Positions 28,996-54,288 of a stretch of 64,000 nucleotides of DNA are shown one piece after another. Both the position numbers and the translations under genes were made by a program. The DNA comes from Acidiferrobacterales bacterium (GTDB lineage: Bacteria > Pseudomonadota > Gammaproteobacteria > Arenicellales > JAJDZL01): assembly GCA_028820695.1 (NCBI GenBank), contig JAPPIB010000050.1:57560-121559 (forward strand). The letters run 5' to 3'. Within the stretch, counting starts at the first letter, position 1. Every line of letters starts with the position of its first letter. The notes beneath the pieces were generated by a model, which worked only from the letters and a program-made list of their open reading frames with translations, had not been told where the DNA came from and did no database searches.

Positions 28996-29024
28996 GGCAC
29001 CTGACCAACCTTCGGTCAGGTGCC
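28996..29024 (+). terminator. Perfect 11-bp hairpin after the Mo-hydroxylase subunits
   Basis: GGCACCTGACC at 28996-29006 pairs perfectly with 29014-29024 across a 7-base loop. It lies 20 bases after the coxM stop and before the MoxR gene. No run of T follows, so it may be an mRNA 3' stabiliser or partial attenuator that raises subunit mRNA over accessory-gene mRNA, and not a full terminator. Confidence 0.5.
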
Positions 29025-29064
29025 GAGTCGCATTGACAGCTGCGTCCTCCACATTCATTCCGCA

Positions 29065-29970: not shown

Positions 29971-29979
29971 GGTGAAGCC

Positions 29980-31260: not shown

Positions 31261-31596
31261 ATGAGTGACAATCCGAACATGACCAATGAACTTTCCATTG
31301 CCGCACAGTGGCTGAATGACAGGTATCGCGTTGCGATCGCCACTGTCATCTCAACGTGGGGATCATCGCCGCGCCCGGTCGGCAGCCAGCTTGTTGTCAA
31401 CAATCTGCGACAATTCGAGGGGTCTGTATCGGGCGGATGCGTCGAGACAGCGGTGATTGAAGAAGCAATTGACGTGATGGATTCCGGCGTACCCCGGATC
31501 TTGGAATATGGTGTCAGCAATGATCAGGCATGGGAGGTGGGGCTCGCCTGCGGCGGTCAGATACAGGTGTATGTTGAACCACTCACGGTGGATTGA
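31261..31596 (+). CDS. XdhC/CoxI N-terminal domain protein
   Basis: A 111 aa protein equal to the first domain of XdhC: IATVISTWGSSPRPVGSQL near residue 25-43, then GSVSGGCVETAVIEEA and LACGGQIQVYVEPL at the end. XdhC proteins bind and sulfurate molybdenum cofactor. The protein stops where the two-domain XdhC would enter a linker, and the matching Rossmann domain is encoded separately 13 bases downstream. The ATG abuts the coxE stop, so translation is probably coupled. Confidence 0.85.
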   Translation: MSDNPNMTNELSIAAQWLNDRYRVAIATVISTWGSSPRPVGSQLVVNNLRQFEGSVSGGCVETAVIEEAIDVMDSGVPRILEYGVSNDQAWEVGLACGGQIQVYVEPLTVD

Positions 31597-31609
31597 ACAA
31601 GCTGTTGGC

Positions 31610-32299: not shown

Positions 32300-33972
32300 T
32301 ATTCGGTCGAATCCCTTTGAAAGACTGCGAGGGTGCGATTCTCGCCCATTCGATTGTGGTCTTGAAGCAAAAGTGGAAGAAGGGAAGGCAGTTGTCTTCA
32401 CACGATGTCAGTGTGCTGGCCCATGAAGGGTTTGAGAGTGTCCATGCCGCGAAACTGGAACCGAACGATGTCGGAGAGGACGCGGCAGCTGAAGCGGTTG
32501 CGCGTGTACTCACCGGTCACGGAGTGGAGGCCAGAAAAGCGGTAACCGGCCGCTGTAATCTGTATGCCACCGACCGGGGTTTGCTGCGACTTCGGACTGA
32601 GCGGATACAATCGTTGAATGCAGTTGATGAGGCGGTTACAGTCGCGACGCTTGACCCTCACAGCAGGGTCTTTCCCGGTCAGTTGCTGGCATCCGTCAAG
32701 GTGATGCCATATGCGGTCAGCCGCCGTCTGGTTGACCGATGTGTGTCCGCGGTGGCAAGTGGTGCGCCGGCGGTCCGGGTCAATCTGTTTCAGTCATTGA
32801 CCGTCGGCCTGATTCAGACTCGGACGGATTGGTTCAATCCGCGTCTGCTCGAGAAGGGGTCTCGTATGCTGCGCGAGAGAGCCGAAATGGTAGGCTTAAG
32901 TATTGGGATTGAGAGGATTTGCGATCATCATGAGGATCAGGTCTCGGGCATGGTGCAGGAGTTGCTGGGCGAGAATCTGGATTTGATCCTGGTATTGGGC
33001 GCTACAGCCATTCAGGATCGCCGGGACGTCATTCCGAGCGCGATTGTGGACGCGGGAGGAAAGATCGAGCATTTCGGAATGCCGGTCGACCCTGGAAATC
33101 TTCTGTTACTGGCCAAATCGGGTCGAACTCGAATCCTAGGTCTGCCCGGGTGCGTACGATCGCCCAAGCGTAATGGATTTGACTTTGTATTTGAGCGAAT
33201 CGTTGCAGGTCTGGACATGGACGCGGAAGAGATCATGGCAATGGGGGTTGGAGGCATCCTTACCGAACCCTCGCGCCGCCCGGAACGTCGTACGGCCGCG
33301 ACAGTCGGGAGCAGGCGCGGCGAACAGGAAATCGCGGCGATTGTTCTCGCTGCCGGTCAGTCCAGACGGATGGGAACGGAGAACAAATTGTTTCTTCCGC
33401 TTGGGAGCGGATCGGTCATCCAACAGGTCGTCGCGAATCTGGAAGGTTCGACAGTCTCCCGGATATTCGTCGTGACCGGTCACCAGCACGAAGAGATCTG
33501 CAAGGAGTTGAGTGAAACTTCGGTGACATTTGTCAACAATCCCGAATATTCGAAGGGGCTCAGTACCTCGCTCAGAACGGCACTCGCGAACTTGCCACCG
33601 GAAATTTCCGGGGTTCTGGTGTGTCTTGGTGATATGCCGTTTGTGCGCAGTGAGCATGTCAATGCGTTGGTGGATTCTTTTGACTCGGTCACCGAACGTC
33701 AGATCTGTGTCCCGACATTCAACGGAAAACGTGGAAATCCGGTCCTATGGGATCGTCGTTATATGCAGGAGATGATGGAAGTGCGGGGCGACGTGGGTGC
33801 GAAGCATATGATCGGTGACTATGAAGAGAATGTTACCGAGGTGGCGTTTGACGACCCCGGCGTGGTTTCGGATATCGACACGCCTGAAGTCTATGCGGAA
33901 CTCATTGCTCGCAGTCAAGAACTGTCAGCAGATCCTGAGAAAGACAGTAGTTTGGAAACCGAATCCGGATAG
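32296..33972 (+). CDS. Molybdopterin-binding / MobA-like nucleotidyltransferase fusion
   Basis: A 558 aa two-domain protein. The N-terminal about 330 residues resemble MoeA/MogA-type molybdopterin-binding proteins (VRVNLFQSLTVGLIQT, LILVLGATAIQDRRDVIP, HFGMPVDPGNLLLLA). From about residue 345 there is a MobA/MocA-type domain with IVLAAGQSRRMGTENKLFLP, VCLGDMPFV and GKRGNPVLW. MocA makes the cytosine dinucleotide form of the cofactor used by xanthine-oxidase-family enzymes. The protein probably completes cofactor for the hydroxylase of this operon. The gene overlaps the preceding stop by 4 bases. Confidence 0.88.
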   Translation: MIFGRIPLKDCEGAILAHSIVVLKQKWKKGRQLSSHDVSVLAHEGFESVHAAKLEPNDVGEDAAAEAVARVLTGHGVEARKAVTGRCNLYATDRGLLRLRTERIQSLNAVDEAVTVATLDPHSRVFPGQLLASVKVMPYAVSRRLVDRCVSAVASGAPAVRVNLFQSLTVGLIQTRTDWFNPRLLEKGSRMLRERAEMVGLSIGIERICDHHEDQVSGMVQELLGENLDLILVLGATAIQDRRDVIPSAIVDAGGKIEHFGMPVDPGNLLLLAKSGRTRILGLPGCVRSPKRNGFDFVFERIVAGLDMDAEEIMAMGVGGILTEPSRRPERRTAATVGSRRGEQEIAAIVLAAGQSRRMGTENKLFLPLGSGSVIQQVVANLEGSTVSRIFVVTGHQHEEICKELSETSVTFVNNPEYSKGLSTSLRTALANLPPEISGVLVCLGDMPFVRSEHVNALVDSFDSVTERQICVPTFNGKRGNPVLWDRRYMQEMMEVRGDVGAKHMIGDYEENVTEVAFDDPGVVSDIDTPEVYAELIARSQELSADPEKDSSLETESG

Positions 33973-36141: not shown

Positions 36142-36621
36142 ACGAGAATGGTTGAAATCGAGCGCCTCGATCGGGAAGTCAGGTTAGCAGGAAGGTTCTG
36201 AACTTGACGACCGCAATGGTGACATTCGACAATTCGCCCCACCCGAAAAGACCGGTCAAGGCATGTTGGTGATGATCAGATAATCAGTTCAAGGCAAATA
36301 TCAGCAACTGCGAATATTTTAAACTTTTCGTTGCCACTTGAATGAAGCCATGTTGTGAGAGTTTTTCAGGCATGGACGGCGTCCTCGAGGCAACGTAGGC
36401 GAGCCTCGGGATCAGTTTTGTGAACGTTCCATTCGGCTGCAACGTGCCTGAACTTCGCATCTGGTCTGATTTTGATTATTCGAATTGAAGCGAAATCGAG
36501 TGAATTGCAACTGACAACACTTGAATCGGCAGGATTCGATTGGTGTATAAAATCCCCGTTGTAGTTTCTCCAACTGATTGCAAGGACTTGCGTTGCTCTT
36601 TGTGGACCGGTGAGATCAGTA
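36142..36621. other. Divergent intergenic region without gene
   Basis: These 480 bases lie between the divergent aminotransferase and ornithine-cyclodeaminase-family genes and should hold both promoters. Several AT-rich patches occur (around 36300-36330 and 36465-36555), but no clear pair of promoter boxes, hairpin or small gene was found. Confidence 0.4.
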
Positions 36622-37674
36622 ATGCTGCAAGTTGAACAGCTATCGAGTGCAAGTCAAATGAATGAGCTGGAACTGTTGTTCCTTTCAAACGACGATGTAG
36701 AGTCGTTGAACTTAGGCCTGAAGGAGGTTATGGACGTCATTGAGGCCGGGCTGATCGCGCATGGCCGGCAGAAAGTCATCATGCCCTCAAAAAGTCATCT
36801 CGTTCTGGATTTTCCGAACCGGTTGTTCAACATACTCAAAGGTTATGTGGAACCGGTCAACGTCGCCGGTGTGAAGGTCATTGGAGACTTCCACGACAAC
36901 TTTCGGCATAACCTGCCGTCAGAATTTGCGCTGGTAAATCTTTACGATCCTGAAACCGGTGTGCCATTCGCAATCGTCGACGGCACTTTGAATACCTGGA
37001 TGCGAACAGGCGCGGTGACTGCACTCGGTGCGAAGTATCTCGCCGACAGGAATTCCAGGGTGCTGGGCCATATCGGCGCTCGCGGTACGTCATGGTACAA
37101 CGTACGGATGCTTGATCAGATTTTCGATTTCGAGGAAATTCGTGTTACCAGCCGACGACCTGAATCGAGAGAGCGGTTTGCGGATGTCTTGTCATCTGAA
37201 CTCGGCAAGGAAATCAAAGTGAAGGATAACACCAAGGATACAGTAGCGGATGCCGATATCATCATTGACGCGTCGCGTCTGCTTGAGCATCAGATTCTAG
37301 TGGCTGATAAGGACGTGAAACCCGGCGCGCATGTCCAGGCGTACGGTGCGGTGTTATCCGTCGAAAGAAAATTGCCGTTTTCGGTTGATAAATTCGTAGT
37401 TGATGATTGGAATCAGTGCAAGATTTCTCCTTACGGCCAGTTCGCTGACTTGGTCCAGCAGGGGGAGTTGCGTGATGAGCATGTGTATGCGGACGTTGGA
37501 GAAATTGCTGCGGGTCTGAAGCCGGGTCGGGAGTCGGATACAGAGCGCAGTCTTTTCTGGCATAAGGGGTTTGCGATAAGCGATATCATGCTGGGAAACC
37601 TGGCCGTGCAAAAAGCCAGGAAGCAGGGTGTCGGAACTCGACTCACATATTGCTCCCGCCCTCGCGACATGTAA
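36622..37674 (+). CDS. Ornithine cyclodeaminase / mu-crystallin family protein
   Basis: A 350 aa NAD(P)-binding protein of the OCD/mu-crystallin superfamily. [11 protein letters not shown] opens it, [10 protein letters not shown] and [16 protein letters not shown] form the substrate side, [17 protein letters not shown] is the family signature and [15 protein letters not shown] the dinucleotide loop (GxGxx variant). Members act as ornithine cyclodeaminases, delta1-pyrroline-2-carboxylate reductases or proteins annotated as tyramine oxidase subunit B. With aconitase X two genes away, a pyrroline-2-carboxylate reductase role is plausible. GTG 36610 and ATG 36658 are alternative starts. Confidence 0.85.
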
Positions 37675-37687
37675 GGAGGCCGCAGAG

Positions 37688-38266
37688 ATGACTGCTGATT
37701 CCGTTGTTCGAAAAAAGTCCAATCTAGTTTGGATTGATCTTGAGATGACGGGGCTCTCCCCGCAAAATGACAGGATTATCGAAATCGCTTCCATTGTCAC
37801 TGACATTCATCTGAACATCGTTGCGGAAGGACCGGAACTTGTCATCCACCAAAGCGATGAGCGCCTCAACGCCATGGATGAATGGAACACAAAAACACAT
37901 GGGGAGAGTGGACTGATTGATCTTGTTCGAGCGTCCACGATTGATGAACAGGAAGCGGAACGGCAGACCCTCTCGTTCCTGAGACGTTATGCGACGAAAA
38001 ATCGCTCGCCGCTATGCGGCAATGCAATATGTCAGGATCGGCGATTTCTTGACCGATACATGCCGCAGGTTTCAGCATATCTCCACTATCGCCATCTGGA
38101 TGTCAGCACAATCAAGGAACTTGCCAAACGTTGGCGGCCGGAATTGTTGCTGACGCAGACCAAGCGTAACCGACATCGCGCCAAGGACGACATCATGGAG
38201 TCTATCGAGGAACTGCGCAGGTATCGGGATCAGTTCTTCCTGACCAACCCGATTGAGATCTGCTGA
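37688..38266 (+). CDS. orn: Oligoribonuclease
   Basis: A 192 aa DEDDh-type 3'-5' exonuclease that degrades 2-5 nt RNA and pGp[11 protein letters not shown] has the first D and [19 protein letters not shown] the second Asp, and [14 protein letters not shown] the His-x4-Asp end. I start at ATG 37688 because AAGGAGG stands 10 bases before it, overlapping the stop region of the previous gene, and because the N-terminus then matches the family (about 180-190 aa). Its place between two amino-acid-metabolism genes is odd. Confidence 0.95.
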
Positions 38267-38331
38267 CCGATTGCACCGGGAAGGCGACCGGGCAGACCGG
38301 GTGAACATCAAGCGCAAGAGAGCTTTCGGTC

Positions 38332-39582
38332 ATGACCTCTGACGTGAAGTTGACGAGTCACGAAAAGCAAATGCTGGATGGCCGGCATGGCTACCCCCGC
38401 CAATGGGCGATGGAACAGCAGCTGAAGGTAGCGCAATTCTTCGGTGCCGAGGATTTTGTCGAAGTGACTCAGGCTCATATCATGTGTGATACGGAATCGC
38501 TGGGCGAGGCCGGAATCGCACATGTCGAGAAACTTGCGCGAAGCAGTGAGGAAAGCCGAAAAGTGGTGATTCCTGCAGTTACTGATCCCAGGGGGATCGA
38601 GTTCAGTCACTACCGGCGGTTTGGTCAGCCTGAAGAGTTTGCAAGGCGTGAGCAACGCCTCATTGACGCCTTGCAGGCCATGGGTGTTCTGATGACTGAT
38701 ACGTGTATCAACTACCAGACTGTAGCGCCACCGGTATTCGGCGAACACCTCGCCTTTGGCGATACCGGATCGGTGATTTACGCGAACAGTGTTTTCGGAG
38801 CGCGCAGCAATTTCGAAGGTGGACCGGCCGCGTTATCTGCCGCGCTGACAGGGCGAGTCCCGCGCTATGGGTATCATCTTGATGAGTGTCGGGTTGCCAT
38901 CCATCATTTTCGGGTGGACTTCCGTCCCCGTACGCTTTCTGATTGGGGTGCTTTGGGTGCCGTGATTGGAAGGGAGGCGGGCTCTTACTGGAACACCCCG
39001 TGGATTTCTGGAATAGACAGAAGTCCAACTTCCGATGAGCTGAAGCACTTCGGAGCTGCTATGGCGAGTTACGGGTCAGTTCCGCTATTTCACATTCAAG
39101 GCGTTACACCGCAAGCGCTCAATTGCGAAAAGTTCGCGGGTGAGACGTATGGAACGCCCGTCAGCATTAGCCGCGCAGACATCGAGCGGATGTATGCCAA
39201 GGCGGACCGGTCAGTCAAGGTAGATGTTGTCGTATTTGCGGCGCCGCAGGTGTCCTTGTTCGAGGTGCAGGACATAGTCAGGTTTCTTGACGGTCGTCGG
39301 ATCAATCCTTCAACTGAACTCCTCATTGCCACCTCGCCTGAAATCAAGTCGGCCTGTGACCGGTTTGGTCTGACCGAACAGTTGGAGCAATCTGGGGCCA
39401 CGGTGTTAAGCGGTGTGTGTTTCTATCAGATGTACGCGAGAGAACTCGGTCAATTGAACGATTGGAGAATGCTTGTCAGCAATTCAGCGAAGCTGGTGAA
39501 CATCATTGCGGGTTACGGCTACGAGCCCAAGCTTGCGACAATGCAACAGTGTGTTGATGCGGCGCTAACCGGTGTTCTATGA
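38332..39582 (+). CDS. Aconitase X catalytic subunit
   Basis: A 416 aa protein of the aconitase X (DUF521) family. The N-terminal LTSHEKQMLDGRHGYPRQWAM, then AHIMCDTESLGEAG, TCINYQTV and GSVIYANSVFGARSNFEGG are strongly conserved, including Cys positions used for the iron-sulfur cluster. Characterised bacterial members of this two-gene type are cis-3-hydroxy-L-proline dehydratases, forming delta1-pyrroline-2-carboxylate; archaeal relatives dehydrate mevalonate 5-phosphate. It overlaps the small subunit by 4 bases. Confidence 0.9.
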   Translation: MTSDVKLTSHEKQMLDGRHGYPRQWAMEQQLKVAQFFGAEDFVEVTQAHIMCDTESLGEAGIAHVEKLARSSEESRKVVIPAVTDPRGIEFSHYRRFGQPEEFARREQRLIDALQAMGVLMTDTCINYQTVAPPVFGEHLAFGDTGSVIYANSVFGARSNFEGGPAALSAALTGRVPRYGYHLDECRVAIHHFRVDFRPRTLSDWGALGAVIGREAGSYWNTPWISGIDRSPTSDELKHFGAAMASYGSVPLFHIQGVTPQALNCEKFAGETYGTPVSISRADIERMYAKADRSVKVDVVVFAAPQVSLFEVQDIVRFLDGRRINPSTELLIATSPEIKSACDRFGLTEQLEQSGATVLSGVCFYQMYARELGQLNDWRMLVSNSAKLVNIIAGYGYEPKLATMQQCVDAALTGVL

Positions 39583-39998
39583 CAATGAATGAGACGATTA
39601 TCCGATGCTCAGCGGGAATGGGCAACCCTATATCCGGGGTAGCATTGTCTGCCAGCGATGATTTCAGCGCCCGATATGATCTGGATCGAATACGGGGTGT
39701 ATTTTCCCGCCCTTCGCATAAGTTATATGGGGAAAGTTACGTCGGAAAGATTCTGGTTTTGAATACCGCGAAGGGCGGAGTCGCTACTGCCTGGATGCTC
39801 CTGGATATGGTATCGAGAGGTTTGGCACCTGCCGCATTGATTCTAAACCGTGCGAATCCGATTATGGTGCAGGGTGCCGCATTTGCGGAGCTTACGCTGA
39901 TGCATGGCTTTGATGTTGATATCCCAACCCAAGTTGAGACCGGCGAATTGATCAGGGTCGATCCTGTCGCAAAACACCTGATCAAGAACCACTGTTGA
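39579..39998 (+). CDS. Aconitase X swivel-domain subunit
   Basis: A 139 aa partner protein (DUF126). RIRGVFSRPSHKLYGESYVGKILVL minus its ends shows the swivel fold entry, NTAKGGVATAWMLLDM the conserved substrate loop, and PIMVQGAAFAELTL the C-terminal part. It closes the active site of the catalytic subunit. ATG 39579 overlaps the upstream stop (ATGA). Together the two make a type II (two-chain) aconitase X. Confidence 0.9.
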   Translation: MTMNETIIRCSAGMGNPISGVALSASDDFSARYDLDRIRGVFSRPSHKLYGESYVGKILVLNTAKGGVATAWMLLDMVSRGLAPAALILNRANPIMVQGAAFAELTLMHGFDVDIPTQVETGELIRVDPVAKHLIKNHC

Positions 39999-44094: not shown

Positions 44095-45105
44095 TCAATA
44101 ACCCAATTCAGGATTGACCGGGTTTTGCAGTGATTTGCCTGAGAGGAAAAGTCGAAGGTTGCGAAAAAACAGCGACAATGTCATCGGTACGTAGGAATTT
44201 CCGTCATCAGCGGAAATATGCGGTGTGACAATCAGGTTCCTGGTTGTCCACAGACGTGAATCAGCGGCGATAGGCTCGGGATCGAACACATCCAGTATGG
44301 CGCCACCGAGCGTGCCCTCATCCAACTTGTCACAAAGCGCATCGTAATCCATTACAGATTCCCTTCCGATATTGACAATTCCGGCGGTGGTCTTCATCAG
44401 GTCAAGCCGCGCACGCGACATCAGACCGCGGGTCAGTGGTGTGTCTGGTGTTGCGATCAGCAGGTAGTCGGCATCGGGTAACACATCGTCGAGCTGTGCG
44501 GTAGTCACCACCCGGTCACATCCTTCCACACGACTGCCGGAACGGTTCACACCGATCACCTGCACATTCAACTGCCTGACTTTGCGGGCCGTCGAACCGC
44601 CGAGTGAGCCTGTTCCCAGGACTACCAGTGTCTTGCCGGCAATGGGTGATGAGTAGAGCGAATCGTAAACCGCGTTGCGCTGATTGAACACCACCGAGGG
44701 AATGTGCGAATGCAGCATCAAGACGGCCATCAGGCCGAATTCGCCAGCTTTGGCCACATGGACACCCTTGTTGTTGGTCAGTGTCACCGGTTCCGGCAGC
44801 CAGTTCATTGGCAGCAAATGCTCGACACCGGCCCCGATACAGTGAATCCAGCGCAGACGAGGGGCGACACTGCCCAGCGCCTCAGTCGGCAGATCCCATG
44901 TCAGCAAGATGTCCGCGTCGGACATGGACGACGTAAAGTTGTCGGTGTCCCAGTCGACAAAGAACTCAACTTTGCCCGCGAGATCCGGAAACTCAGCAAG
45001 TGCGATATCAATGCGTTCCTGCGATATGGTGAATACAGCCTCACCCTCGGGAGTATTGGGAAACGAACCCGGTCGCCAGCGGTTGTTCTTGACATGTACC
45101 TTCAT
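44095..45105 (-). CDS. D-2-hydroxyacid dehydrogenase
   Basis: A 336 aa NAD(P)-dependent dehydrogenase of the D-isomer family, interconverting a 2-oxoacid and a D-2-hydroxyacid. The dinucleotide loop is VLGTGSLGGS (about residue 165), and the catalytic Arg, Glu and His lie in NIGRES, FDPEPI and TPHISAD. It overlaps the Rieske oxygenase gene by 4 bases (ATGA), so it probably works on a product of the same pathway. It is the last gene of a long leftward operon. Confidence 0.9.
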   Translation of the reverse strand: MKVHVKNNRWRPGSFPNTPEGEAVFTISQERIDIALAEFPDLAGKVEFFVDWDTDNFTSSMSDADILLTWDLPTEALGSVAPRLRWIHCIGAGVEHLLPMNWLPEPVTLTNNKGVHVAKAGEFGLMAVLMLHSHIPSVVFNQRNAVYDSLYSSPIAGKTLVVLGTGSLGGSTARKVRQLNVQVIGVNRSGSRVEGCDRVVTTAQLDDVLPDADYLLIATPDTPLTRGLMSRARLDLMKTTAGIVNIGRESVMDYDALCDKLDEGTLGGAILDVFDPEPIAADSRLWTTRNLIVTPHISADDGNSYVPMTLSLFFRNLRLFLSGKSLQNPVNPELGY

Positions 45106-46490
45106 TGGAATGACTCTGTTCGGTCGATGCCGTGCACTTCAAGATCCTTCAGTCGGTCGATGATCTCGTCATCACGACTTTCTTCATTGGCGGCCTCTGC
45201 GGCGAACTGCAAATCCATCACTGCCTTACCGATCCGGTCAAGATATGCCTGATCATCCTCGCCACTTCTCGCTGGCAGGGCCAGGACCGTGTCCTGGCCA
45301 TAGGTCTTTACGAAGTTGCCGCCCGATCTGGTCGGCTGCGGCGGGTTGATTTGGTCGGCCAGTGCGCGAACCTGTTTACGTATGCGCCTGCGGTAAAGGG
45401 CGATACCCCGATCCGTCGGCATCAGGTTCTCACCCTTGTGGGTCGAAATGCCGCCCATCCCTTCAACCGCCTCTGAATCCGCCGGAAAGCGTTTCTTGTC
45501 CTCCAGGCTACGATCAATCACTTCGCCTTGCTCGATCATCTCGTAACCTTCCCTGGTGTTGTATTGATGCGGGTCCCAGCGACTGCCGAAATTCGCCCAC
45601 GCGTAGACGATCGAGTTCTCGTCATCAACCGGTACAACCCACCGGGTGAAGCAGGAACGGCCGAAATAAATCTGCTTTTTACCATCTGCGGCAAAGGCTG
45701 AACCGGCTTGTGTAAAATTCGGGAGAATCAACTCATTGACCCGAACCCATACATTGTCACCAACGCGGCGGGTTGCAGAGCCCAGGAAGTGGTTTTCGTG
45801 CCGCTCGTAGAATTGCAGCACACCCTCAGCTTTCATGCCTTCCGAAAACTGTGGGTGACTGTTTCGGCTGTGAAGGTAGGTGGTGTGAGTCGGGTCGAGA
45901 ATTGCGTCCAGAATCTGAATCCAGTTGCACCTGTACGGAGCCTTGTAGACTGCGCTGGTCATGTCCTCGTAAAGGCATGCGTCATATATCGGGAAATCAG
46001 GCTGATCGTCAGGCGGTCCCATATAGGCGAAAATCAATCCGCGGTATTCGATAACGGGATAGGCGCCAAGCCGCGCAGTCTTGCGCAGCATGTCAGCAGT
46101 CTTGGAGCTCTCAGCCGGCATCTCCAGGATCTCACCATCAGGCGCGAACAGCCATCCGTGATAACAGCATCGGATTCCATTGTCCTCGCATTTGCCGTAT
46201 TCCAGCGACGCGCGCCGGTGAAGACAATGTTTGTGTACCAGTCCGATCCTGTCCCGCTGCTCTCCGTAGCGAAACAAAACCAGATCTTCGCCGAGAATCC
46301 TGATCGCTTCAGGCAACTCACCCAACTCTTCGGTGGTATAGACAGGATGCCAGAATCGGCGGTAATATTCACCGGCAGGTGTTCCGGGCCCAATTCTCGC
46401 GATTTCCTCATCTGCCGCAGCCGGCTGCGACTGCGCGTATCCACTGAATCTGCCATCCATGACCTGCGGTCGAACGTCCTTCTTGAACAT
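45102..46490 (-). CDS. Rieske oxygenase, phthalate/LigXa-like
   Basis: A 462 aa oxygenase component. The Rieske cluster is bound by CLHRRA (residues about 89-94) and CCYHGW (about 107-112). The mononuclear iron site is LDPTHTTYLH, matching D-x2-H-x4-H. The N-terminal YRRFWHPVYTTEELGE and RILGEDLVLFRYG segments are typical of the one-component oxygenase group that includes phthalate 4,5-dioxygenase and LigXa, which hydroxylate or demethylate aromatic acids. No reductase gene is adjacent. It is co-transcribed with the downstream dehydrogenase. Confidence 0.88.
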   Translation of the reverse strand: MFKKDVRPQVMDGRFSGYAQSQPAAADEEIARIGPGTPAGEYYRRFWHPVYTTEELGELPEAIRILGEDLVLFRYGEQRDRIGLVHKHCLHRRASLEYGKCEDNGIRCCYHGWLFAPDGEILEMPAESSKTADMLRKTARLGAYPVIEYRGLIFAYMGPPDDQPDFPIYDACLYEDMTSAVYKAPYRCNWIQILDAILDPTHTTYLHSRNSHPQFSEGMKAEGVLQFYERHENHFLGSATRRVGDNVWVRVNELILPNFTQAGSAFAADGKKQIYFGRSCFTRWVVPVDDENSIVYAWANFGSRWDPHQYNTREGYEMIEQGEVIDRSLEDKKRFPADSEAVEGMGGISTHKGENLMPTDRGIALYRRRIRKQVRALADQINPPQPTRSGGNFVKTYGQDTVLALPARSGEDDQAYLDRIGKAVMDLQFAAEAANEESRDDEIIDRLKDLEVHGIDRTESFQ

Positions 46491-46643
46491 AGTCGTTATC
46501 CTTTTGGGTTGAAGTATCTATCGGTAAAGCACTAAACAATTCTCGGTGGGAACGTCACTATCCGTCTATCCCCACCAATCTATCACCTCCATTTGGGAGT
46601 ACGAGAGGCTGGTTGATCGAATTGACACTCTGATCAAACCGAC

Positions 46644-47657
46644 TCAATCCAGTAATTCGCGAATTGCCAGGTCCAGGTAATCATGAAATTCAGGGTCGTT
46701 ACCCGGTGAGGCGACGCAATGCCCCCACGGAGATTCGTAAATTCGAAGCTCTCCGTTCGGAATGTGTTCGATTTCGAGCTGGTTATCCTCCGGACGAAAA
46801 TACAGATCATTGTCACATGCAATGATGATCGTCTTTGCCTTGATTCCATTCAGTGCCGCAACGAAATCGCCACCGTAAGCGGGTTGCGAGCTGATGTCGC
46901 CATTCTGCCAGGTCTTGAGCTTGCACAGCAGATCGTTGGCATCCCAATCTAAGTGGTCACGCTCCCAATCCTGCAGCAATTCCTCCGCAGTCGCAAACCC
47001 CTTGAGTTCAAACATTCGGTTTCGGTAGAAGGTCTGTGAAAAAGCCCAGCCGGCATAGACCCGACCGAACGCCTTGAGACCCTTGACCGGTGGTGTGGTG
47101 TATTTACCCTCATCATAGACCGCATCAGCAGTGAGTGCCGACTTGACACCTTCGAGAAATACGATGTTGTGTTCGGAAGTTCTCGCCGAACCGCAAAAAG
47201 GAAGTATCGCGCTGACAAAATCGGGAAACTGCGCGCCCCACTGAAACGCCTGGCATCCGGCCATTGACCAACCTGCAACCAAGGCGATCCTGTTTACGCC
47301 CAGTTCTTCGGTAAGCAGACGGTGCTGTGCACGTACATTGTCATATAACGTCACCTGGGGAAATCTCGCCGCATCGAATGGTGGTGGAGTGTTGCTGGGA
47401 GACGATGAGATTCCGTTGCCGAACATGTTTACTGACACCACGAAATGTCGCGCAGGGTCAATCGCCCGTCCGGGTCCGAAAAAGCCCTCGTTGCGTATGT
47501 GCGTTCCAGTGTAGAACGTAGGCAACAATATCACGTTGTCTCGGTCTTGATTGAGCTTTCCGTAAGTCTTGTAAGCGAGCAACGCGTTCGGCAGTACTGC
47601 ACCAGACTGGAGTTCGAAACTGCCGAGAGAAAAACTTTCGTGGCCTGTGGTCATCAT
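46644..47657 (-). CDS. MetX-like alpha/beta hydrolase
   Basis: A 337 aa protein of the homoserine acetyltransferase-like branch of alpha/beta hydrolases. The nucleophile elbow is VAGWSMAGCQAFQW, the Asp lies in IACDNDLYF and the His in SPWGHCVASPG. Length and the N-terminal AYKTYGKLN are as in MetX, but the residues around the nucleophile differ from true acyltransferases, and the catabolic context makes hydrolysis of an ester or amide equally likely. A GTG directly before the ATG is an alternative start. It lies between the oxygenase and ABC genes. Confidence 0.82.
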   Translation of the reverse strand: MMTTGHESFSLGSFELQSGAVLPNALLAYKTYGKLNQDRDNVILLPTFYTGTHIRNEGFFGPGRAIDPARHFVVSVNMFGNGISSSPSNTPPPFDAARFPQVTLYDNVRAQHRLLTEELGVNRIALVAGWSMAGCQAFQWGAQFPDFVSAILPFCGSARTSEHNIVFLEGVKSALTADAVYDEGKYTTPPVKGLKAFGRVYAGWAFSQTFYRNRMFELKGFATAEELLQDWERDHLDWDANDLLCKLKTWQNGDISSQPAYGGDFVAALNGIKAKTIIIACDNDLYFRPEDNQLEIEHIPNGELRIYESPWGHCVASPGNDPEFHDYLDLAIRELLD

Positions 47658-47695
47658 CACTCGTTCAAGTCATCTTGTCTGGCGGAAAACTCGGG

Positions 47696-48514
47696 TTATT
47701 GTTCCACATCGCTGGCTTCCTCTCGCATCATATGCAGAATTTTTCGTTCAATCTCGTAATAACCCGGTGTCTCGAACAATTCTTCCTTGCTGGGAATCCT
47801 GCGTCCCTGCTTGAACTCCATGGTCAATATCTCACGGATTCGACCAGGGTGTCTTGACATGAAAACGATTCGATCAGCGAGAAACAATGCCTCCGAAATA
47901 TCGTGAGTGACCAACACGACCGTCATCTGTGATTCATCAATGATGTCCAGTATCAATTCCTGCATATGCCAGCGCGTCTCCGCGTCCAGTGCGCCGAAAG
48001 GTTCATCCATAAGCGAAATTTCCGGTGAGTTGGCCAGCATCCGCGCGATCGCGACGCGTTGCTTCATACCACCAGACAGCTGTTTTGGATATGCCTTGCG
48101 AAACCGCTCCAACTTGACTTTTTTGATGAAGAAATCCACCCGTTCGCGTCGTTCAACCGGGTTCACCTTGTTCAGACGCAATCCATATTCCACATTTTCT
48201 TCGACCGTCAGCCACGGAAATGAAGTGTAACTCTGAAAGACCATGCCGCGTTCCTGACTGGGACCGGCAATCTCCTTGCCGTTGAAGCTGAGGGCTCCGG
48301 AGGTTGGATCGACAAGCCCGGCCATCATATGCAAGACTGTTGTCTTGCCGCAGCCGGACGGGCCCAGCAATACGCAAACCTCGTTGTCAAAAACTTCCAT
48401 GGATATGTCCTTCACCGCCACAACCGGCTCGGCGCGCTTGAGCATGTATTGTTTCGACACATGCTCAAGCACCAAGTTGCTGCGGTGCACCTGTTCCAGG
48501 TAACCGGTACCCAT
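47696..48514 (-). CDS. NMT1/Tau-type ABC importer ATPase
   Basis: A 272 aa ATPase of the nitrate/sulfonate/taurine group. Walker A is LLGPSGCGKTT, the signature LSGGMKQRVAIAR, Walker B ISLMDEPFGALD, and LVTHDISEALFLADR follows. It energises import by the permease and binding protein encoded just upstream in the same operon. I use ATG 48514; a TTG three codons upstream is possible. Confidence 0.93.
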   Translation of the reverse strand: MGTGYLEQVHRSNLVLEHVSKQYMLKRAEPVVAVKDISMEVFDNEVCVLLGPSGCGKTTVLHMMAGLVDPTSGALSFNGKEIAGPSQERGMVFQSYTSFPWLTVEENVEYGLRLNKVNPVERRERVDFFIKKVKLERFRKAYPKQLSGGMKQRVAIARMLANSPEISLMDEPFGALDAETRWHMQELILDIIDESQMTVVLVTHDISEALFLADRIVFMSRHPGRIREILTMEFKQGRRIPSKEELFETPGYYEIERKILHMMREEASDVEQ

Positions 48515-48571
48515 AGTAGTCAATGAAAAGAGTGCTGCACGGGCGTTAATACACTCCGCGCAGCAGGTTTT

Positions 48572-49624
48572 CTAGCCTCTGTAGCCTGAATCATAGAGCT
48601 CCTTGAGCAGGTCGCAGTTTACGCCCTTCTCAACAGGATTCCGACTCTCGAGAAAGCCGAACTTGAGCCACCAGTCAGACATGAGTTCGTAGTGAGCGCT
48701 CATCTGACCGTTGGTTTGGTTGAACGGAGGATTACCGGGAGCCGAACCACAGAAACGTGCCGCTTCAAGGAAGTCATAAATGTAGAGTCCGCCGTCAAGT
48801 CCGGTTCCATCCTTACCGATGACCAGTTCAACGTCCTCGATGCTCATCTTCATTCCTTTCGCAATAATTTCGTTGCCTTGTGTTGGATTTTCTTTCCACC
48901 AGGCAATCGCATCGTACAGTGCCCGCATGGTATCCAATGCGACATCGTGACGTTCTTCGATGAATTTGGCGTTCATGTAAAGGCCGTCGGCAATGACCGC
49001 TTGAGAGGTCCAGTAATCTTCTCGCGATTGAGACAGTACCTTGGAACCCTCAAGAGCCTTGAGCACGTTGCTGCCGTATGGTTCCCAGAACTCAGATGCG
49101 GCAACATCTCCGCCGATCATGGCGGCAAATGCATCATCCGCGATAATATTGGAATATTCAACCGAATCAAAAGGAAATCCGTTTCGTTCCAGCCACATGG
49201 CAACATAAATCTGTGCCAGTCCGCCTTCAACCACGGCTACTTTCTTTCCCTTGAGATCTGCCGGACCTTCGATACCCGGTGCGACCACGATCTTGTCAGT
49301 TCCATACGACAAGTTCGCAAAAGCAACCAGTTTCAGCGGCATGTTGCGTTCAGCCGCGATCGGAGAAAACTCAACCGTGCTCGAGACCACATCCATCCTG
49401 TCAGCGGTCACGAGGTTATAGCTTTCGTACGGGTCTTCGATAGTCTGGTATTGGATATCGAGATTCGGCGCGAGATTCTTGTCCCGGGCGATGAACCAAA
49501 AGCCGTAACCCGGCCATGTAAAACCGGAGATCTTGACCTCTTCGGCCGCATTGGCCGGCAGGGCGAAAGTCAGCAAGCTCGCGCATGCGAGTATTAATGT
49601 AGCGATTGATTTTTTTGTTGTCAT
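48572..49624 (-). CDS. NMT1/TauA-like substrate-binding protein
   Basis: A 350 aa periplasmic binding protein with a Sec signal peptide (TLILACASLLTFALPANA, then AEE). The mature part has the NMT1/SsuA fold: VKISGFTWPGYGFWFIARDK, then the DLKGKKVAVVEGG hinge segment. Ligands of this group include sulfonates, thiamine-precursor-like pyrimidines, nitrate, aromatic acids and amines, so it does not fix the substrate. It lies between permease and ATPase in the operon. Confidence 0.9.
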   Translation of the reverse strand: MTTKKSIATLILACASLLTFALPANAAEEVKISGFTWPGYGFWFIARDKNLAPNLDIQYQTIEDPYESYNLVTADRMDVVSSTVEFSPIAAERNMPLKLVAFANLSYGTDKIVVAPGIEGPADLKGKKVAVVEGGLAQIYVAMWLERNGFPFDSVEYSNIIADDAFAAMIGGDVAASEFWEPYGSNVLKALEGSKVLSQSREDYWTSQAVIADGLYMNAKFIEERHDVALDTMRALYDAIAWWKENPTQGNEIIAKGMKMSIEDVELVIGKDGTGLDGGLYIYDFLEAARFCGSAPGNPPFNQTNGQMSAHYELMSDWWLKFGFLESRNPVEKGVNCDLLKELYDSGYRG

Positions 49625-49733
49625 TTCTCATGTACCTCCAACTTCAAAATCGGGTGAAAAAGTATTGACAGTTAAGATTGGTCTGCATTGATGTCAGACC
49701 GGAAAAATTGTGTCGGTTGGCTTTGACATCGCG

Positions 49734-50564
49734 TCAATTACCATCAAGATACGGGAACAGCATACGTCGCAGGCGGCGCAACAGAATATCGAAAACCAAT
49801 CCGAGCAAGCCGATCGTGATGATGCCAGCCATGATCTCGTCGATGTGCACGAATCGCTTGGCGCGCATCATCATTGCGCCAATGCCGGACTCCGCAGCGA
49901 CAATTTCGGCAATGACCAGATAGGTCCAGCTTACCGCGAGCATCTGACGCATGGCGGTCAGTATGTCCGGTAACATTGCCGGTACAACCACAGTCAGCAG
50001 CACTTGTTTGCGGTTGCCTCCCAGAGTCAGGGCCGAATTGACAAAATCGGCGGGTACGGACTTGGCATAGTCCATGATGAGTGTGATCAGGAACCACACC
50101 ACACCGAGAAACAGCAAAGCCAGTTTCTGTTCTTCGCCCGCGCCAAGCCACATCAGCAGCAGGGGAATGAATGAGGGCGCCGGAAGATAGCGGAACGCCG
50201 AAACCAACGGGTTGAAGAATGCCTCGACTCTGCGAAACGTACCCATCATGATGCCCAGCGGGATTGCAAACAGACAAGCCAACGCAAAACTGGCTACGAT
50301 CCGGAACAGGCTCATCCCGACGTCGTGCAGGTAGTTCTTGACCGTAAACAACTCGATGAAACTCGCGAGAACTGTGAACGGACCCGGCAACAGGACCGCA
50401 TTGGTCACTTTCAACAGGACTGCGAGTTCCCAAATTCCAAAAAAGACAAACCACGCGGCCAATCCCAAACGTATGGTGCTGACCAGCGAAATCGCCCGGT
50501 TGAACTCGAAGAGTCGAGACTTGCGACCGCTTATCCTTGCCGGTGCGGACTGCACGTTGCTCAT
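49734..50564 (-). CDS. NMT1/Tau-type ABC importer permease
   Basis: A 276 aa inner-membrane permease with about six helices. The first is LGLAAWFVFFGIWELAVLL, and the cytoplasmic coupling region is QMLAVSWTYLVIAEIVAAESGIGAMM, given here only in its central part, as in SsuC/TauC. About 110 bases separate its stop from the binding protein gene; a 6-bp hairpin (49680-49700) lies there. It is the first transport gene after the glutamine-synthetase-like gene. Confidence 0.92.
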   Translation of the reverse strand: MSNVQSAPARISGRKSRLFEFNRAISLVSTIRLGLAAWFVFFGIWELAVLLKVTNAVLLPGPFTVLASFIELFTVKNYLHDVGMSLFRIVASFALACLFAIPLGIMMGTFRRVEAFFNPLVSAFRYLPAPSFIPLLLMWLGAGEEQKLALLFLGVVWFLITLIMDYAKSVPADFVNSALTLGGNRKQVLLTVVVPAMLPDILTAMRQMLAVSWTYLVIAEIVAAESGIGAMMMRAKRFVHIDEIMAGIITIGLLGLVFDILLRRLRRMLFPYLDGN

Positions 50565-50622
50565 ACTGGATCACTCATGTCGGTTCGCAGTGGTCGAAAA
50601 CACTCAACCTGGTTTTTGTTGG

Positions 50623-52038
50623 TTAATACAGTCTCAGGTACTCCTGAACTTCCCAATCAGTAACTGACTGGTGGTACCGCTCCCATTCGTCGACTTTATA
50701 AGCGATATAGGACTGGCGCATACCTTCGCCCATGACTTCCTGTGCGAGTTCGTCTGTGGCCAGCGCCGCGGTGGCGGCACTGAGATTTCGCGGCAGCCGG
50801 CGGATTCCGGCTTGCTTGAATTCGGCGTCGGTCATCTGATACAAGTCGCGGTCAGTTGCCGGACCGGGGTCGATCTTGTTGACGATGCCTTTCACTGCTG
50901 CTTTCAGTGTCATCGCAAGACCCAGATAGACATTCATGCACATGTCGGCAGCACGGTTCTCGATGCAGTAGCGACTCTGTGGCAGACGAAACTGGGCCGA
51001 CCGGTTGTTGTGACCGTAGGTGATATTGGTCGGTGCCCAGGTTACTGTTCCGCCTTCAAATCCACCGACCCGCGGTACCAGCCCGTTATAGGAATTCACT
51101 GTCGGGCAGGTAATGGCAGTAAGCGCGTCCGCATGCGTCATCAGGCCCCCGACTGCGTGAAGCGCTTCATCCGACCAGCCGGACCCATCCGAGCCGAAGA
51201 TATTTTTTTCCGGAGCGTCCACCGACAGCATTGAGAAATTGATGTGTGCGCCTGAGCGCCAATCACCGGTGGTCGGCTTGGGCATGAAAGTGATGAACAT
51301 GCCATGCTTCTTTGCGACTTCCTTGAGCAGAATCCGCAAGAACACCAGCCGGTCTGCCATTTCCAGAGGATGGGTGTAGTGAAAGTCAAGCTCAAACTGC
51401 GAATAGGCACCTTCTGCCACGACGTCATGCAGATTCCAGCCGAGACCCTCGAGAATGTCGATCATGTCCCTGAAGAAAAACATGGAGTCGAGCGAGTACT
51501 CGACATCGTAGCCAAATGCCTGTCGGCGCGGTCTGACACCATTCAGGGGGTCGTTGTCGATCGCTTTGACCGGATTGCCATCGTTGTCGTAACGCATCGC
51601 GATGAATTCCGGTTCGATACCAGCCATGCCCAAAAAGCCGGCTTGGGCGCCATCGCGAATCGCTCGCTTCAATGCCTGACGCGGACAATGATCGTAGGGT
51701 TTGCCTTCCCAGAAAAGATCGGCAAATATGATCGCCATGCTTTTGTCCCACGGACACACATATACCGCATCAAGATCCGGCACCATGATCTGGTCGGAAT
51801 CCGCCGGTGTCAGTTCGGGAACATACGAGATGGAATGTACCGCGAACTGCGGTCCCTTGCCTTTGCACAGCAATTCAAAGTCACTCATCGGCACGGGCTT
51901 GGTTTTCGGAATGCCGAAAAGGTCAATCCAGCTCGACAGAACGTACTTGACTCCTTCGGCTTCAAGCTGTTTGCGTACCGCAGCGATACGCTCGTCTGAG
52001 GGCAGGGCGTCGGCAAAGTTTTCAATATAGGGATTCAT
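50623..52038 (-). CDS. Glutamine synthetase-like gamma-glutamyl ligase
   Basis: A 471 aa member of the glutamine synthetase superfamily. VLSSWIDLFGIPKTKPVP is the beta-grasp start, GIEPEF and SQFELDF hold metal-binding Glu residues (SQFE where GQFE is usual), and GAHINFSM and the Arg-rich QFRLPQSRYCIENR are in the C-terminal domain. The form FMPKPTTGDW resembles the GlnT / gamma-glutamylmethylamide synthetase group more than housekeeping GlnA. I infer ligation of glutamate to an organic amine, matching the oxygenases and importer around it. The Lrp-type regulator gene lies 43 bases upstream on the same strand. Confidence 0.85.
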   Translation of the reverse strand: MNPYIENFADALPSDERIAAVRKQLEAEGVKYVLSSWIDLFGIPKTKPVPMSDFELLCKGKGPQFAVHSISYVPELTPADSDQIMVPDLDAVYVCPWDKSMAIIFADLFWEGKPYDHCPRQALKRAIRDGAQAGFLGMAGIEPEFIAMRYDNDGNPVKAIDNDPLNGVRPRRQAFGYDVEYSLDSMFFFRDMIDILEGLGWNLHDVVAEGAYSQFELDFHYTHPLEMADRLVFLRILLKEVAKKHGMFITFMPKPTTGDWRSGAHINFSMLSVDAPEKNIFGSDGSGWSDEALHAVGGLMTHADALTAITCPTVNSYNGLVPRVGGFEGGTVTWAPTNITYGHNNRSAQFRLPQSRYCIENRAADMCMNVYLGLAMTLKAAVKGIVNKIDPGPATDRDLYQMTDAEFKQAGIRRLPRNLSAATAALATDELAQEVMGEGMRQSYIAYKVDEWERYHQSVTDWEVQEYLRLY

Positions 52039-52081
52039 CAGCTATTCTCCTTGCATAGGCGCTGGTTGGCTTTTTTAGGGT

Positions 52082-52594
52082 TCAACTCCACTCGTACTTG
52101 AGTAGGAACTGGTTCTTGAAATTCTTCAGTCCCGACATGACCTCACTCGATGCGATGTCGGGTTGGACATGAATTTCCGTTTCCAGAAAATCGTGAAAAC
52201 TGCACATACTGTTGGTGACTACTTCGACCAAAAGGTCGAAACGTCCGGTTACCCATAGAATGTAGACAACATCGGGTGATTCACCGATTCGTTTGGCAAC
52301 TTGGTCAACCGAGTGATTGGCTGCGACTCTTACGCCGATGATTGCATCTGCCTGGTAGCGTACCACGGTCGGGTCGACCAGCGCCACAATCCGAAGAGCT
52401 CCGGCGTTTTTCATCGACTGCACCCGATTGCGCACCGTACCCTCCGACACGCCCAGTGTTGTAGCAATCTCCCGGTACGGACGACGTCCGTCATTTTGAA
52501 GCATCTTGACGATCTCGCGGTTGAGGTCGTCCTCAATCGCTGCTATACCGTTCAACTTCTGATTTGCAGGTGACCGCGACTCAGTCTTGATCAT
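52082..52594 (-). CDS. Lrp/AsnC-family transcriptional regulator
   Basis: A 170 aa regulator with an N-terminal helix-turn-helix (REIATTLGVSEGTVRNRVQ, about residues 42-60) and a C-terminal RAM ligand-binding domain (VVYILWVTGRFDLLVEV). Such proteins respond to amino acids or related molecules. Being first in the leftward operon and divergent from the second Rieske gene, it probably controls both. Two near-identical 12-13 base repeats sit just upstream (52603-52657). The first 15 residues form an extra polar extension. Confidence 0.92.
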   Translation of the reverse strand: MIKTESRSPANQKLNGIAAIEDDLNREIVKMLQNDGRRPYREIATTLGVSEGTVRNRVQSMKNAGALRIVALVDPTVVRYQADAIIGVRVAANHSVDQVAKRIGESPDVVYILWVTGRFDLLVEVVTNSMCSFHDFLETEIHVQPDIASSEVMSGLKNFKNQFLLKYEWS

Positions 52595-52602
52595 TGTGAA
52601 TT

Positions 52603-52657
52603 CATCAAAATACTGTTTATTATTTGTTGAATAGTGAATATACTACATCAAATACTG
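52603..52657. promoter_or_regulatory. Direct repeats upstream of the Lrp-type gene
   Basis: CATCAAAATACTG (52603-52615) and CATCAAATACTG (52646-52657) lie 43 bases apart, about four helical turns, within AT-rich DNA between the regulator and the divergent Rieske gene. The spacing and place suit binding sites for an oligomeric Lrp-type protein. This is inference from position only. Confidence 0.4.
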
Positions 52658-52738
52658 CGAAACGATGAATTTTTTTGCAATACAAGTTGCGAATACAGAA
52701 ATCGTCGATGGTTTGATATTGGCTCATAAAGGCATTTG

Positions 52739-53878
52739 ATGAATTTCGACATCACGTTGCTGGAACACTTCGAAAGGACCGGGAAAACGCTCCACGGCCT
52801 GCCTGGCGCAGCCTACACAGATGATCGATTTTTCCATCTTGAGCTGAGCCGGATTTTCGCACGGGAGTGGGTATTCGCAGGTTTTGCCCACGGGATGGAA
52901 AAGGTGGGCGATGTCCGACCGATCGAGGTGGGGGGATTTCCGCTGTTCCTGCTACGCGCAGAGGATGGGAATATTGCCGCCTATCACAATGTTTGCCGAC
53001 ATCGGAATACGCAACTGGTGGGTTCTGACTGCAATACCGGCCGGCAGATTCGATGTCCATATCACCACTGGAGCTATGATCTTTGCGGAGCGCTGAAAAG
53101 CGCCCCTTATTTTGGCGGTCGCACCCGCGAGCTGCCCGTTGACTTTCGTTTTGAGGAATATGGATTGCTGCCGGTGCACTGTCAGGTCTGGCATGATTGG
53201 ATATTTGTCAAACTGGCTTCAAGTCCGTTGCCGTTTGAGGACTTTCTGGCTCCGATCAAGAATCAGTTGGGGTTGACCGATGTCTCTGAGTTCGAGCCGG
53301 TGACGACGATAGACATGGGTGTCGTTGATTGCAACTGGAAGTCATTGATGGAAAACTACATCGAGCCATACCATGTCCAGTTTGTACACAAGGACACGAC
53401 TGACCAGCCGCTGACCGGGCACTACACGGTGGTCGACAGGCACTGCCTTGGCAGTGCATTTGATTCGGAAGAGTCAGATGTGACTCGGGTGCGCGAGGGC
53501 ACCTTGGGTGTGACTTCGCACTATCTGACGCTGTTCCCGAACTTCGTTCTGGGCACATACCAACCGGATCAATTGGGGGTGCATATCAATACACCGCTCA
53601 GTGTCTCGACCACCCGACAGAGCCGGGTGATTTACATTCACAGGGAATCGCAGTATAGTGATAATCAAATCAAGCAGCTGGAGGATCTTTGGTACAAGGT
53701 GCACCTGGAAGACCATGAGATGTGCGAGCGAATGCAGCTCGGACGCCGGTCTCCGGTTGCCAGTACTGGCGGGGTGCTCTCACCGCACTGGGAAAACAGC
53801 GTACGCAAGTTTCAGGAACTAGTAGTCCGATCAGTTGCACCCGCACTCGCAAATACTGACAAAGGAGGTAATCCATGA
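52739..53878 (+). CDS. Rieske oxygenase, quaternary-amine-type
   Basis: A 379 aa oxygenase. Rieske ligands are in CRHRNTQ (about 86-92) and CPYHHWSYD (about 106-114). The catalytic iron site is ENYIEPYHVQFVH, N-x2-E-x2-H-x4-H form. The overall pattern (REWVFAGFAHGMEKVGD, HNVCRHR, GLLPVHCQVWHDWIFV) resembles the group with glycine betaine, carnitine and stachydrine oxygenases, although aromatic substrates are not excluded. No reductase gene is adjacent. It is divergent from the Lrp-type regulator and overlaps the glyoxalase gene by 4 bases. Confidence 0.87.
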   Translation: MNFDITLLEHFERTGKTLHGLPGAAYTDDRFFHLELSRIFAREWVFAGFAHGMEKVGDVRPIEVGGFPLFLLRAEDGNIAAYHNVCRHRNTQLVGSDCNTGRQIRCPYHHWSYDLCGALKSAPYFGGRTRELPVDFRFEEYGLLPVHCQVWHDWIFVKLASSPLPFEDFLAPIKNQLGLTDVSEFEPVTTIDMGVVDCNWKSLMENYIEPYHVQFVHKDTTDQPLTGHYTVVDRHCLGSAFDSEESDVTRVREGTLGVTSHYLTLFPNFVLGTYQPDQLGVHINTPLSVSTTRQSRVIYIHRESQYSDNQIKQLEDLWYKVHLEDHEMCERMQLGRRSPVASTGGVLSPHWENSVRKFQELVVRSVAPALANTDKGGNP

Positions 53879-54288
53879 GTGAGCCAAAACCTGACTTTCG
53901 ACTTGACCACACCATGATCCGCGTATTCGATCAGGAAAAAACACTGGATTTCTATACCCGCATCCTTGGCATGAAAATCCTGCGGCAGAACGAGTATCCG
54001 GAAGGTCGGTTTACCAACACCTTCATCGGATATCAGGGCGAGGACGAGGGAACAACGATCGAAATGACCTACAACTGGGATCAGCAAGAGCCGTACGACA
54101 TGGGCGATGCCTGGGGGCATCTGGCGCTCAAGGTTTCCGATGTCTATGCGACTGCGAATTATCTCAAGTCACAGGGTGTAGAATTTGTGCGCGAGCCGGG
54201 CCCGATGAAGGGCGGTACCCGCGTGATCGCATTCATCAAGGATCCCAACGGCTACAAGATCGAGTTGAACGAACCCATCGGCGGATGA
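53875..54288 (+). CDS. gloA: Glyoxalase I-like lyase
   Basis: A 137 aa vicinal-oxygen-chelate protein matching lactoylglutathione lyase. Metal ligands are His in RLDHTMIRV, Glu in TTIEMTYNW, His in WGHLALKV and Glu in YKIELNEP. GloA isomerises the glutathione hemithioacetal of methylglyoxal. A strong AAAGGAGG lies 9 bases before the ATG, inside the end of the Rieske gene. The coupling suggests either protection from a reactive aldehyde made by the oxygenase or a specialised pathway step. Confidence 0.92.
   Translation: MSEPKPDFRLDHTMIRVFDQEKTLDFYTRILGMKILRQNEYPEGRFTNTFIGYQGEDEGTTIEMTYNWDQQEPYDMGDAWGHLALKVSDVYATANYLKSQGVEFVREPGPMKGGTRVIAFIKDPNGYKIELNEPIGG

Follow-up and report, generated by a model that had tools for sequence, protein, structure and literature searches.

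GmaS, PuuA, IpuC, and AtdA1/TdnQ are ligases of the glutamine synthetase (GS) fold, and in the clusters for aniline and 1-naphthylamine such a ligase is combined with an oxygenase and a hydrolase (PMC11335346). Among the Rieske oxygenases that act on quaternary ammonium compounds (Group V), Group Va includes CntA and the choline monooxygenases and is marked by a Glu as the bridging residue and an aromatic residue two positions ahead of that Glu (Y203/E205 in CntA; PMC7948474). Here we describe a locus that resembles these systems in parts, located at positions 44,095–54,288 of a 64,000-nucleotide stretch of DNA (the window) from contig JAPPIB010000050.1 of an Acidiferrobacterales bacterium (assembly GCA_028820695.1; 2.77 Mb in 58 contigs). 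The locus encodes a GS-fold ligase, a MetX-like α/β-hydrolase (MetX), two Rieske oxygenases (RO1 and RO2), a D-2-hydroxyacid dehydrogenase (HADH), a glyoxalase (GLO), an ATP-binding cassette (ABC) importer, and an Lrp/AsnC-type regulator (Lrp).

The ligase has in common with GmaS, PuuA, IpuC, and AtdA1/TdnQ the fold, the metal- and ATP-binding residues, and the loss of Asp50, but it is only ~35% identical to GmaS-type ligases and has exchanged the Arg and Gly that bind glutamate. The logic of ligase, oxygenase, and hydrolase is that of the aniline and 1-naphthylamine clusters. Unlike these, the locus has a hydrolase of another class, an altered GS pocket, a glyoxalase, and a D-hydroxyacid dehydrogenase, and both of its Rieske oxygenases are single-component α subunits with no β subunit. 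RO2 is similar to CntA and the choline monooxygenases in the bridging Glu, the aromatic residue two positions before it, and, as far as its model shows, apparently the overall fold. However, RO2 and CntA share just 22% sequence identity, and the partners of RO2 are a glyoxalase and a GS-fold ligase, whereas those of CntA are CntB and an aldehyde dehydrogenase. The hydrolase, like the structurally characterized PRK07581 hydrolases (PDB 5e4y and 5d6o), scores above the family cut-off and has an intact triad, but is strictly paired with the GS-fold ligase. Catabolism of betaines and methylated amines by Rieske oxygenases is known in kind, and as far as we found, the module is a new form of it in its gene content and its altered GS. 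Searches of openly licensed papers for the gene set, for SAR11 with a Rieske oxygenase, and for the MetX-like hydrolase returned no paper on the cluster; an earlier sequence-only reading of the window had likewise not recognized the set.

The ligase, MetX, RO1, HADH, RO2, and GLO form one functional module and are not chance neighbors, as evident from their co-occurrence and co-location across Gammaproteobacteria and Alphaproteobacteria. Among 109 genomes of the host's order, 37 (14 of 31 genera) have the ligase and 40 have MetX; an RO1 with identity above one half is present in 33, and 25 have RO2. Ligase and MetX occur together in 36 genomes, with one having only the ligase, four only MetX, and 68 neither (p = 4 × 10^-23); ligase and RO1 occur together in 29, singly in 8 and 4, and in 68 not at all (p = 5 × 10^-15); and ligase and RO2 occur together in 25, with 12 having only the ligase, none only RO2, and 72 neither (p = 7 × 10^-16), these being Fisher tests that take no account of kinship among genomes, which are not independent. 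Every RO2 genome thus has the ligase (25 of 25), 36 of the 37 ligase genomes have MetX, and all four of these genes are present in 18 genomes. The co-occurring genes are frequently found on separate contigs, and therefore the association exceeds mere linkage of neighbors.

Gene order is conserved as well. Scanning named genomes turned up 345 relatives; 80 of the loci were examined, 47 of them from SAR11. The run RO2-GLO-cupin-ligase-MetX occurs in this order in 42 of the 47 SAR11 loci, and the whole divergent block, with HADH and RO1 leftward and the run rightward, in 29. The cupin is EutQ-like and is not among the genes of the window cluster. On a plasmid of Leisingera thetidis, an uninterrupted series comprises RO2, GLO, cupin, ligase, permease, binding protein, ATPase, and MetX, with Lrp divergent, which amounts to a nearly complete window gene set. 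The ligase, MetX, Lrp, and importer are found on plasmids of M382 and Alisedimentitalea, and the order ligase-permease-binding protein-ATPase-MetX is kept at four loci (L101, L111, L164, and L185). Lrp/AsnC regulators are present at 26 of the 34 loci from outside SAR11. HADH adjoins RO1 in nearly all genomes examined. The module is partial in roseobacters, Mesorhizobium, and Mycolicibacterium, where one locus (L146) has the ligase and MetX alone in common with the window cluster. The sequence-only reading had proposed a single catabolic island around the Lrp regulator and had named beforehand the absence of the set elsewhere as grounds for abandoning it; the set does occur elsewhere, with shared synteny across phyla, in support of the island.

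We compared the substrate pocket of the ligase, by alignment, with GS and GmaS chains of solved structure and with two proteins that the host encodes separately from the module's ligase, GlnA (L219) and a GmaS-like protein (L220). Equivalents of the metal and ATP ligands are retained. Four pocket residues are substituted (Salmonella GS number to window residue: D50 to A66, N264 to W260, G265 to R261, and R321 to G319), and each substitution is kept in at least 97% of 105 relatives. Ala at the position of Asp50 is common to GmaS, but the exchanges of Arg321 and Gly265 are not; Arg321 is present in the host's GlnA, its GmaS-like protein, and the solved relatives shown. In GS, the α-carboxylate and α-amino group of glutamate are held by Arg321 and Gly265, and ammonia is activated by Asp50. 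With Gly in place of Arg321 and Arg in place of Gly265, the module's ligase probably takes an acid other than L-glutamate. The straightforward reading of the pocket would be an ATP-dependent ligase whose acid is a different one and whose nucleophile is not ammonia. The earlier description of this protein as GlnT/γ-glutamylmethylamide-synthetase-like is correct as to the fold. As to specificity it is not: the glutamate pocket is changed, and the protein falls below the cut-off for type III GS (TIGR03105, 357.7 vs. 469.6 bits). We rejected γ-glutamylmethylamide synthetase as its identity on the basis of this score and the loss of Arg321.

The same residues bear on whether the module carries out γ-glutamylation in the style of the aniline, isopropylamine, or methylamine routes, in which the ligase joins glutamate to an amine, a Rieske oxygenase oxidizes the conjugate, and the hydrolase frees glutamate. 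The best solved relative of the ligase is indeed a glutamate-methylamine ligase (PDB 9qur), the Ala in place of Asp50 at the ammonium site, as in GmaS, suits a bulkier amine, and the ligase is paired with a hydrolase. We nonetheless regard this route as unlikely, with Arg321 replaced by Gly, Gly265 by Arg, and Asn264 by Trp family-wide, and with a hydrolase that falls outside the class I amidotransferases on which the aniline and putrescine routes rely.

The hydrolase belongs to the PRK07581 subfamily (NF005757, 450.1 bits; cut-off 332), has a conserved S132-D285-H314 triad, and matches PDB 5e4y and 5d6o with E-values of about 1e-62. Its earlier naming as a MetX-like hydrolase needs a correction, in that the protein is not MetX proper: homoserine O-acetyltransferase was rejected, since the score lies far below the MetX equivalog cut-off (TIGR01392, 150.6 vs. 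500 bits).

RO2 provides one indication of the substrate. Its iron-site motif, EN[FY]IEPYHVQFVH, has a bridging Glu (E210) and an aromatic residue two positions before it (F/Y208), as seen from all motif variants listed for 58 relatives. The Rieske CXH...CXXH residues (C87/H89 and C107/H110) and the iron-binding His pair (H213/H218) are conserved in the family. Judged by these residues, the protein shows the iron-site signature of Group V, that is, quaternary-ammonium, Rieske oxygenases. A Foldseek search with the AlphaFold model of RO2, which is of fair quality (predicted local distance difference test [pLDDT] score, 80), returned quaternary-ammonium-type Rieske chains (CntA, Stc2, and 3n0q) at all of ranks 1–18. 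RO2 falls below the cut-off for the glycine betaine monooxygenase GbcA (NF058607, 141.4 vs. 670 bits). Outside its own family, the closest plasmid relatives of RO2 are located beside BCCT betaine carriers and EutQ-type cupins. At one further locus (L118), a different Rieske oxygenase with F-x-E ahead of its His pair adjoins MetX.

Transport genes linked to the module in relatives provide a second clue. A ProX-type glycine-betaine importer (435 bits; cut-off 215) adjoins MetX in Roseovarius (L164) and Pontibaca (L181), lies just past MetX-Lrp in Mesorhizobium (L127), and adjoins RO1-HADH at three Arenicellales loci (L065, L066, and L068). Of the three tryptophans in the box of Escherichia coli ProX, these proteins keep two and have Tyr for the third. 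The NMT1-type binding protein of the window has weak PDB matches, to SsuA/TauA, and its model, built from five sequences, is poor (pLDDT, 52).

The signature of RO2, the linked ProX importers, and the location of RO2 relatives beside BCCT carriers and EutQ-like cupins make a betaine-type substrate more likely than an aromatic amine. The sequence-only reading had suggested amine or aromatic chemistry; the methylated-amine part of this gains indirect support from the RO2 signature and the linked betaine importers, whereas the aniline-like or aromatic part, with its γ-glutamyl ligase, finds no support, the ligase having lost Arg321 and Gly265. On balance, we consider that the module serves the catabolism of a betaine-type compound, quaternary or otherwise N-methylated, a reading to which we give marginally better than even chances. 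Several points count against it. The Cys-X-X-Cys pair near the iron, which is unique to some Group V members (PMC10952381), is not found in RO2, which has P211 and V214 there instead. The RO2 model superimposes on CntA with a VIA-align Z-score of 33.4 and on toluene dioxygenase with one of 31.9, a difference of ~1.5; because the scores for CntA are close to those for aromatic dioxygenases, the fold alone does not decide the matter, and the motif carries the weight. The NMT1-type binding protein falls outside the betaine-binding families. RO2 and GLO are absent from some genomes that have the ligase and MetX, RO2 being absent from 12 of 37 ligase genomes, and the p-values above leave kinship out of account. 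Finally, the order of the steps and the acid and amine of the ligase are inferred from gene association and residue patterns, which are what we observed.

By sequence, GLO is a genuine glyoxalase I, with a TIGR00068 score above the cut-off of 120 bits and metal ligands (H12-E63-H82-E130) conserved in 57 relatives. The catalytic residues of HADH (R248-E277-H296) are kept in at least 97% of 63 relatives. RO1 has a bridging Asp199 with His202/His207, and the family motif WIQ[IV]LDAI.DP.HT..LH; its best PDB matches are 7fhr and 7fjl. As the sequence-only reading had noticed, no reductase gene occurs within the module. At least four reductases with flavin and [2Fe-2S] are encoded elsewhere in the host genome, and in orthologous clusters RO1-HADH has a gene for ferredoxin reductase, ferredoxin, or Rieske ferredoxin beside it. 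In a complete genome of the same genus (G002; L081:12049-15834), the RO1 gene is split by ~2.4 kb containing other ORFs, with junction residues repeated; this looks like an insertion.

A pathway may be proposed for a betaine-type substrate. The compound would be taken up by the ABC importer, or by the ProX-type betaine importer in relatives. RO2 would hydroxylate the carbon beside the quaternary nitrogen, releasing a methylated amine and a carbonyl compound, plausibly a 2-oxoaldehyde. With glutathione, GLO would convert the latter to a D-2-hydroxyacyl thioester or acid, and HADH would oxidize the D-2-hydroxyacid to a 2-oxoacid with recovery of NADH. RO1, encoded in a pair with HADH, may supply one more hydroxylation, coupled to HADH, that gives a different 2-hydroxyacid. 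The ligase could work with the hydrolase as a tag-and-release pair on an acid intermediate, the ligase making an ATP-dependent amide on a non-glutamate acid and the hydrolase cleaving it later. Electrons would be supplied by the reductases encoded elsewhere in the genome, and Lrp presumably senses an intermediate and governs both divergent units. More tentatively, and with rather less than even confidence, we suggest that the GS-fold ligase with its non-glutamate acid, the α/β-hydrolase, and the two Rieske oxygenases constitute a tag-oxidize-release pathway for some betaine that is abundant in the sea, and that SAR11, the roseobacters, and gammaproteobacteria of marine habitats, Arenicellales for example, all use this pathway.

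Which dissolved nitrogen compounds are consumed by SAR11 and its neighbors, and by which enzymes, is a long-standing question of carbon and nitrogen cycling in the ocean, and the conservation of the module in SAR11 adds to its interest. The seven-gene block, whose order is kept in dozens of SAR11 genomes and which is common to culturable roseobacters and Mesorhizobium, is a directly testable target. If our reading is true, the remodeled acid pocket of the GS-fold ligase would widen the known scope of this ancient enzyme family.

Only a shade less likely than γ-glutamylation is a guanidino substrate (arginine-, creatine-, or agmatine-like, and possibly N-methylated), with ureohydrolases or creatinase-like enzymes in the same pathway. 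Arginase-family genes occur near ligase-MetX at L102/L103, L123, L129, L118, and L101, Alphaproteobacteria among them, M24 creatinase-like proteins at L102/L103, L115/L116, and L093, and a gene of M382 is annotated as 5-guanidino-2-oxopentanoate decarboxylase. However, neither the cluster of the window nor the block of SAR11 has a ureohydrolase or creatinase-like gene, and the families vary by lineage (23–32% identity) and may belong to separate nitrogen-scavenging loci.

Less likely again is an aromatic substrate, on which a phthalate-dioxygenase-type RO1 would begin ring attack and the other genes would form the lower pathway. RO1 does match phthalate 4,5-dioxygenase-type proteins best, and NMT1-type binding proteins are generally known to import aromatic acids as well. 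Yet the module has no ring-cleavage dioxygenase, its vicinal oxygen chelate protein is glyoxalase I proper, and quaternary amines are indicated both by RO2 and by the importers linked to the module.

We judge it improbable that the module is the marine homarine pathway, homABCDER, which has reportedly been described for SAR11 and Rhodobacterales. The taxonomic spread is similar, as is the arrangement of five co-directional genes and a regulator. Ruegeria pomeroyi DSS-3, however, draws homarine down fast (PMC12817926), and its genome has no ortholog of the module's ligase, the best match being a GmaS-like protein at 35% identity. We identified this genome (G732) as that of DSS-3 by its megaplasmid metK, which is at identical coordinates (9429-10610 of C2) and 100% identical.

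That the window merely juxtaposes two independent units is very improbable: RO1-HADH and RO2-GLO are unlinked from the ligase in some genomes, but the unlinked pairs still co-occur with it in the same genomes, and both flank ligase-MetX in SAR11 and at L179.

All ten reading frames (ORFs) of the locus are open, with profile matches far above chance (Table 1), so the gene set exists as first described, apart from small errors of naming. The 4-bp overlaps of HADH with RO1 and of RO2 with GLO, the short gaps of 35–153 bp in the rest of the leftward unit, and the single divergent region suggest two operons under one shared control region. Compared across five Arenicellales genomes, the divergent region is AT-rich, and a search there for an Lrp operator found just short conserved AT-rich patches in common. 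Promoter and terminator scans at the locus gave no signal above chance level.

Table 1. Genes and control region of the locus, in window coordinates.
Feature	Position	Strand	Evidence
HADH, D-2-hydroxyacid dehydrogenase	44095..45105	-	Pfam PF02826, E 4.8e-42
RO1, Rieske oxygenase, phthalate-4,5-dioxygenase/LigXa-like type	45102..46490	-	Pfam Rieske + LigXa_C
MetX-like α/β-hydrolase, PRK07581 subfamily	46644..47660	-	NCBIfam NF005757, 450 bits
ABC transporter ATPase of importer	47696..48523	-	PF00005
NMT1/SsuA-type periplasmic binding protein	48572..49624	-	PF09084, E 1.1e-12
ABC permease	49734..50564	-	PF00528
GS-fold (GS-like) ligase with changed substrate pocket	50623..52038	-	PF00120, E 2e-86
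Lrp/AsnC-type regulator	52082..52594	-	PF13404 + PF01037
Divergent promoter region, 141 bp, between leftward and rightward units	52595..52735	.	Coordinates
RO2, Rieske oxygenase α subunit	52736..53878	+	PF00355 + PF00848
GLO, glyoxalase I	53875..54288	+	TIGR00068, 147.1 bits

Additional genes adjoin the block in SAR11. In ~17 SAR11 loci (L141:4792-12615, L133, L149, L151, and others), genes for the following proteins come after the block: luciferase-like monooxygenase, thiamine diphosphate (ThDP) enzyme, PF06684 "amino acid synthesis" protein, α/β-hydrolase, aldehyde dehydrogenase, EamA transporter, and binding protein of the branched-chain type. These genes are possibly a second uncharacterized catabolic run. 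A ThDP enzyme as a common step was rejected, as the ThDP enzymes encoded close to the cluster in SAR11, in Leisingera, and in M382 resemble one another at just ~24%. In ~19 other SAR11 loci (such as L183:9223-10164 and L167:6648-7535), MetX is followed by a gene resembling that of L-carnitine dehydrogenase, and past HADH there is a gene of the BKACE type (3-keto-5-aminohexanoate cleavage). Genes for a carnitine 3-dehydrogenase and a BKACE enzyme also occur on a Leisingera plasmid (L203), less than ~10 kb from MetX.

Three other loci of the window were seen. At 36610-39998, an ornithine cyclodeaminase/mu-crystallin gene and an oligoribonuclease-like ORF are followed by a two-part aconitase X gene, an arrangement that resembles cis-3-hydroxyproline catabolism. 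Positions 10057-18064 encode a urate oxidase N-terminal-type protein, a molybdenum enzyme of two subunits that resembles xanthine dehydrogenase, and an ABC ATPase, and this is probably a locus for purine catabolism and uptake. At 25799-33972, the large subunit of a molybdenum hydroxylase, a MoxR-type ATPase, a CoxE-like VWA protein, and a MobA-like protein make up a putative carbon-monoxide-dehydrogenase-like (form II) locus.

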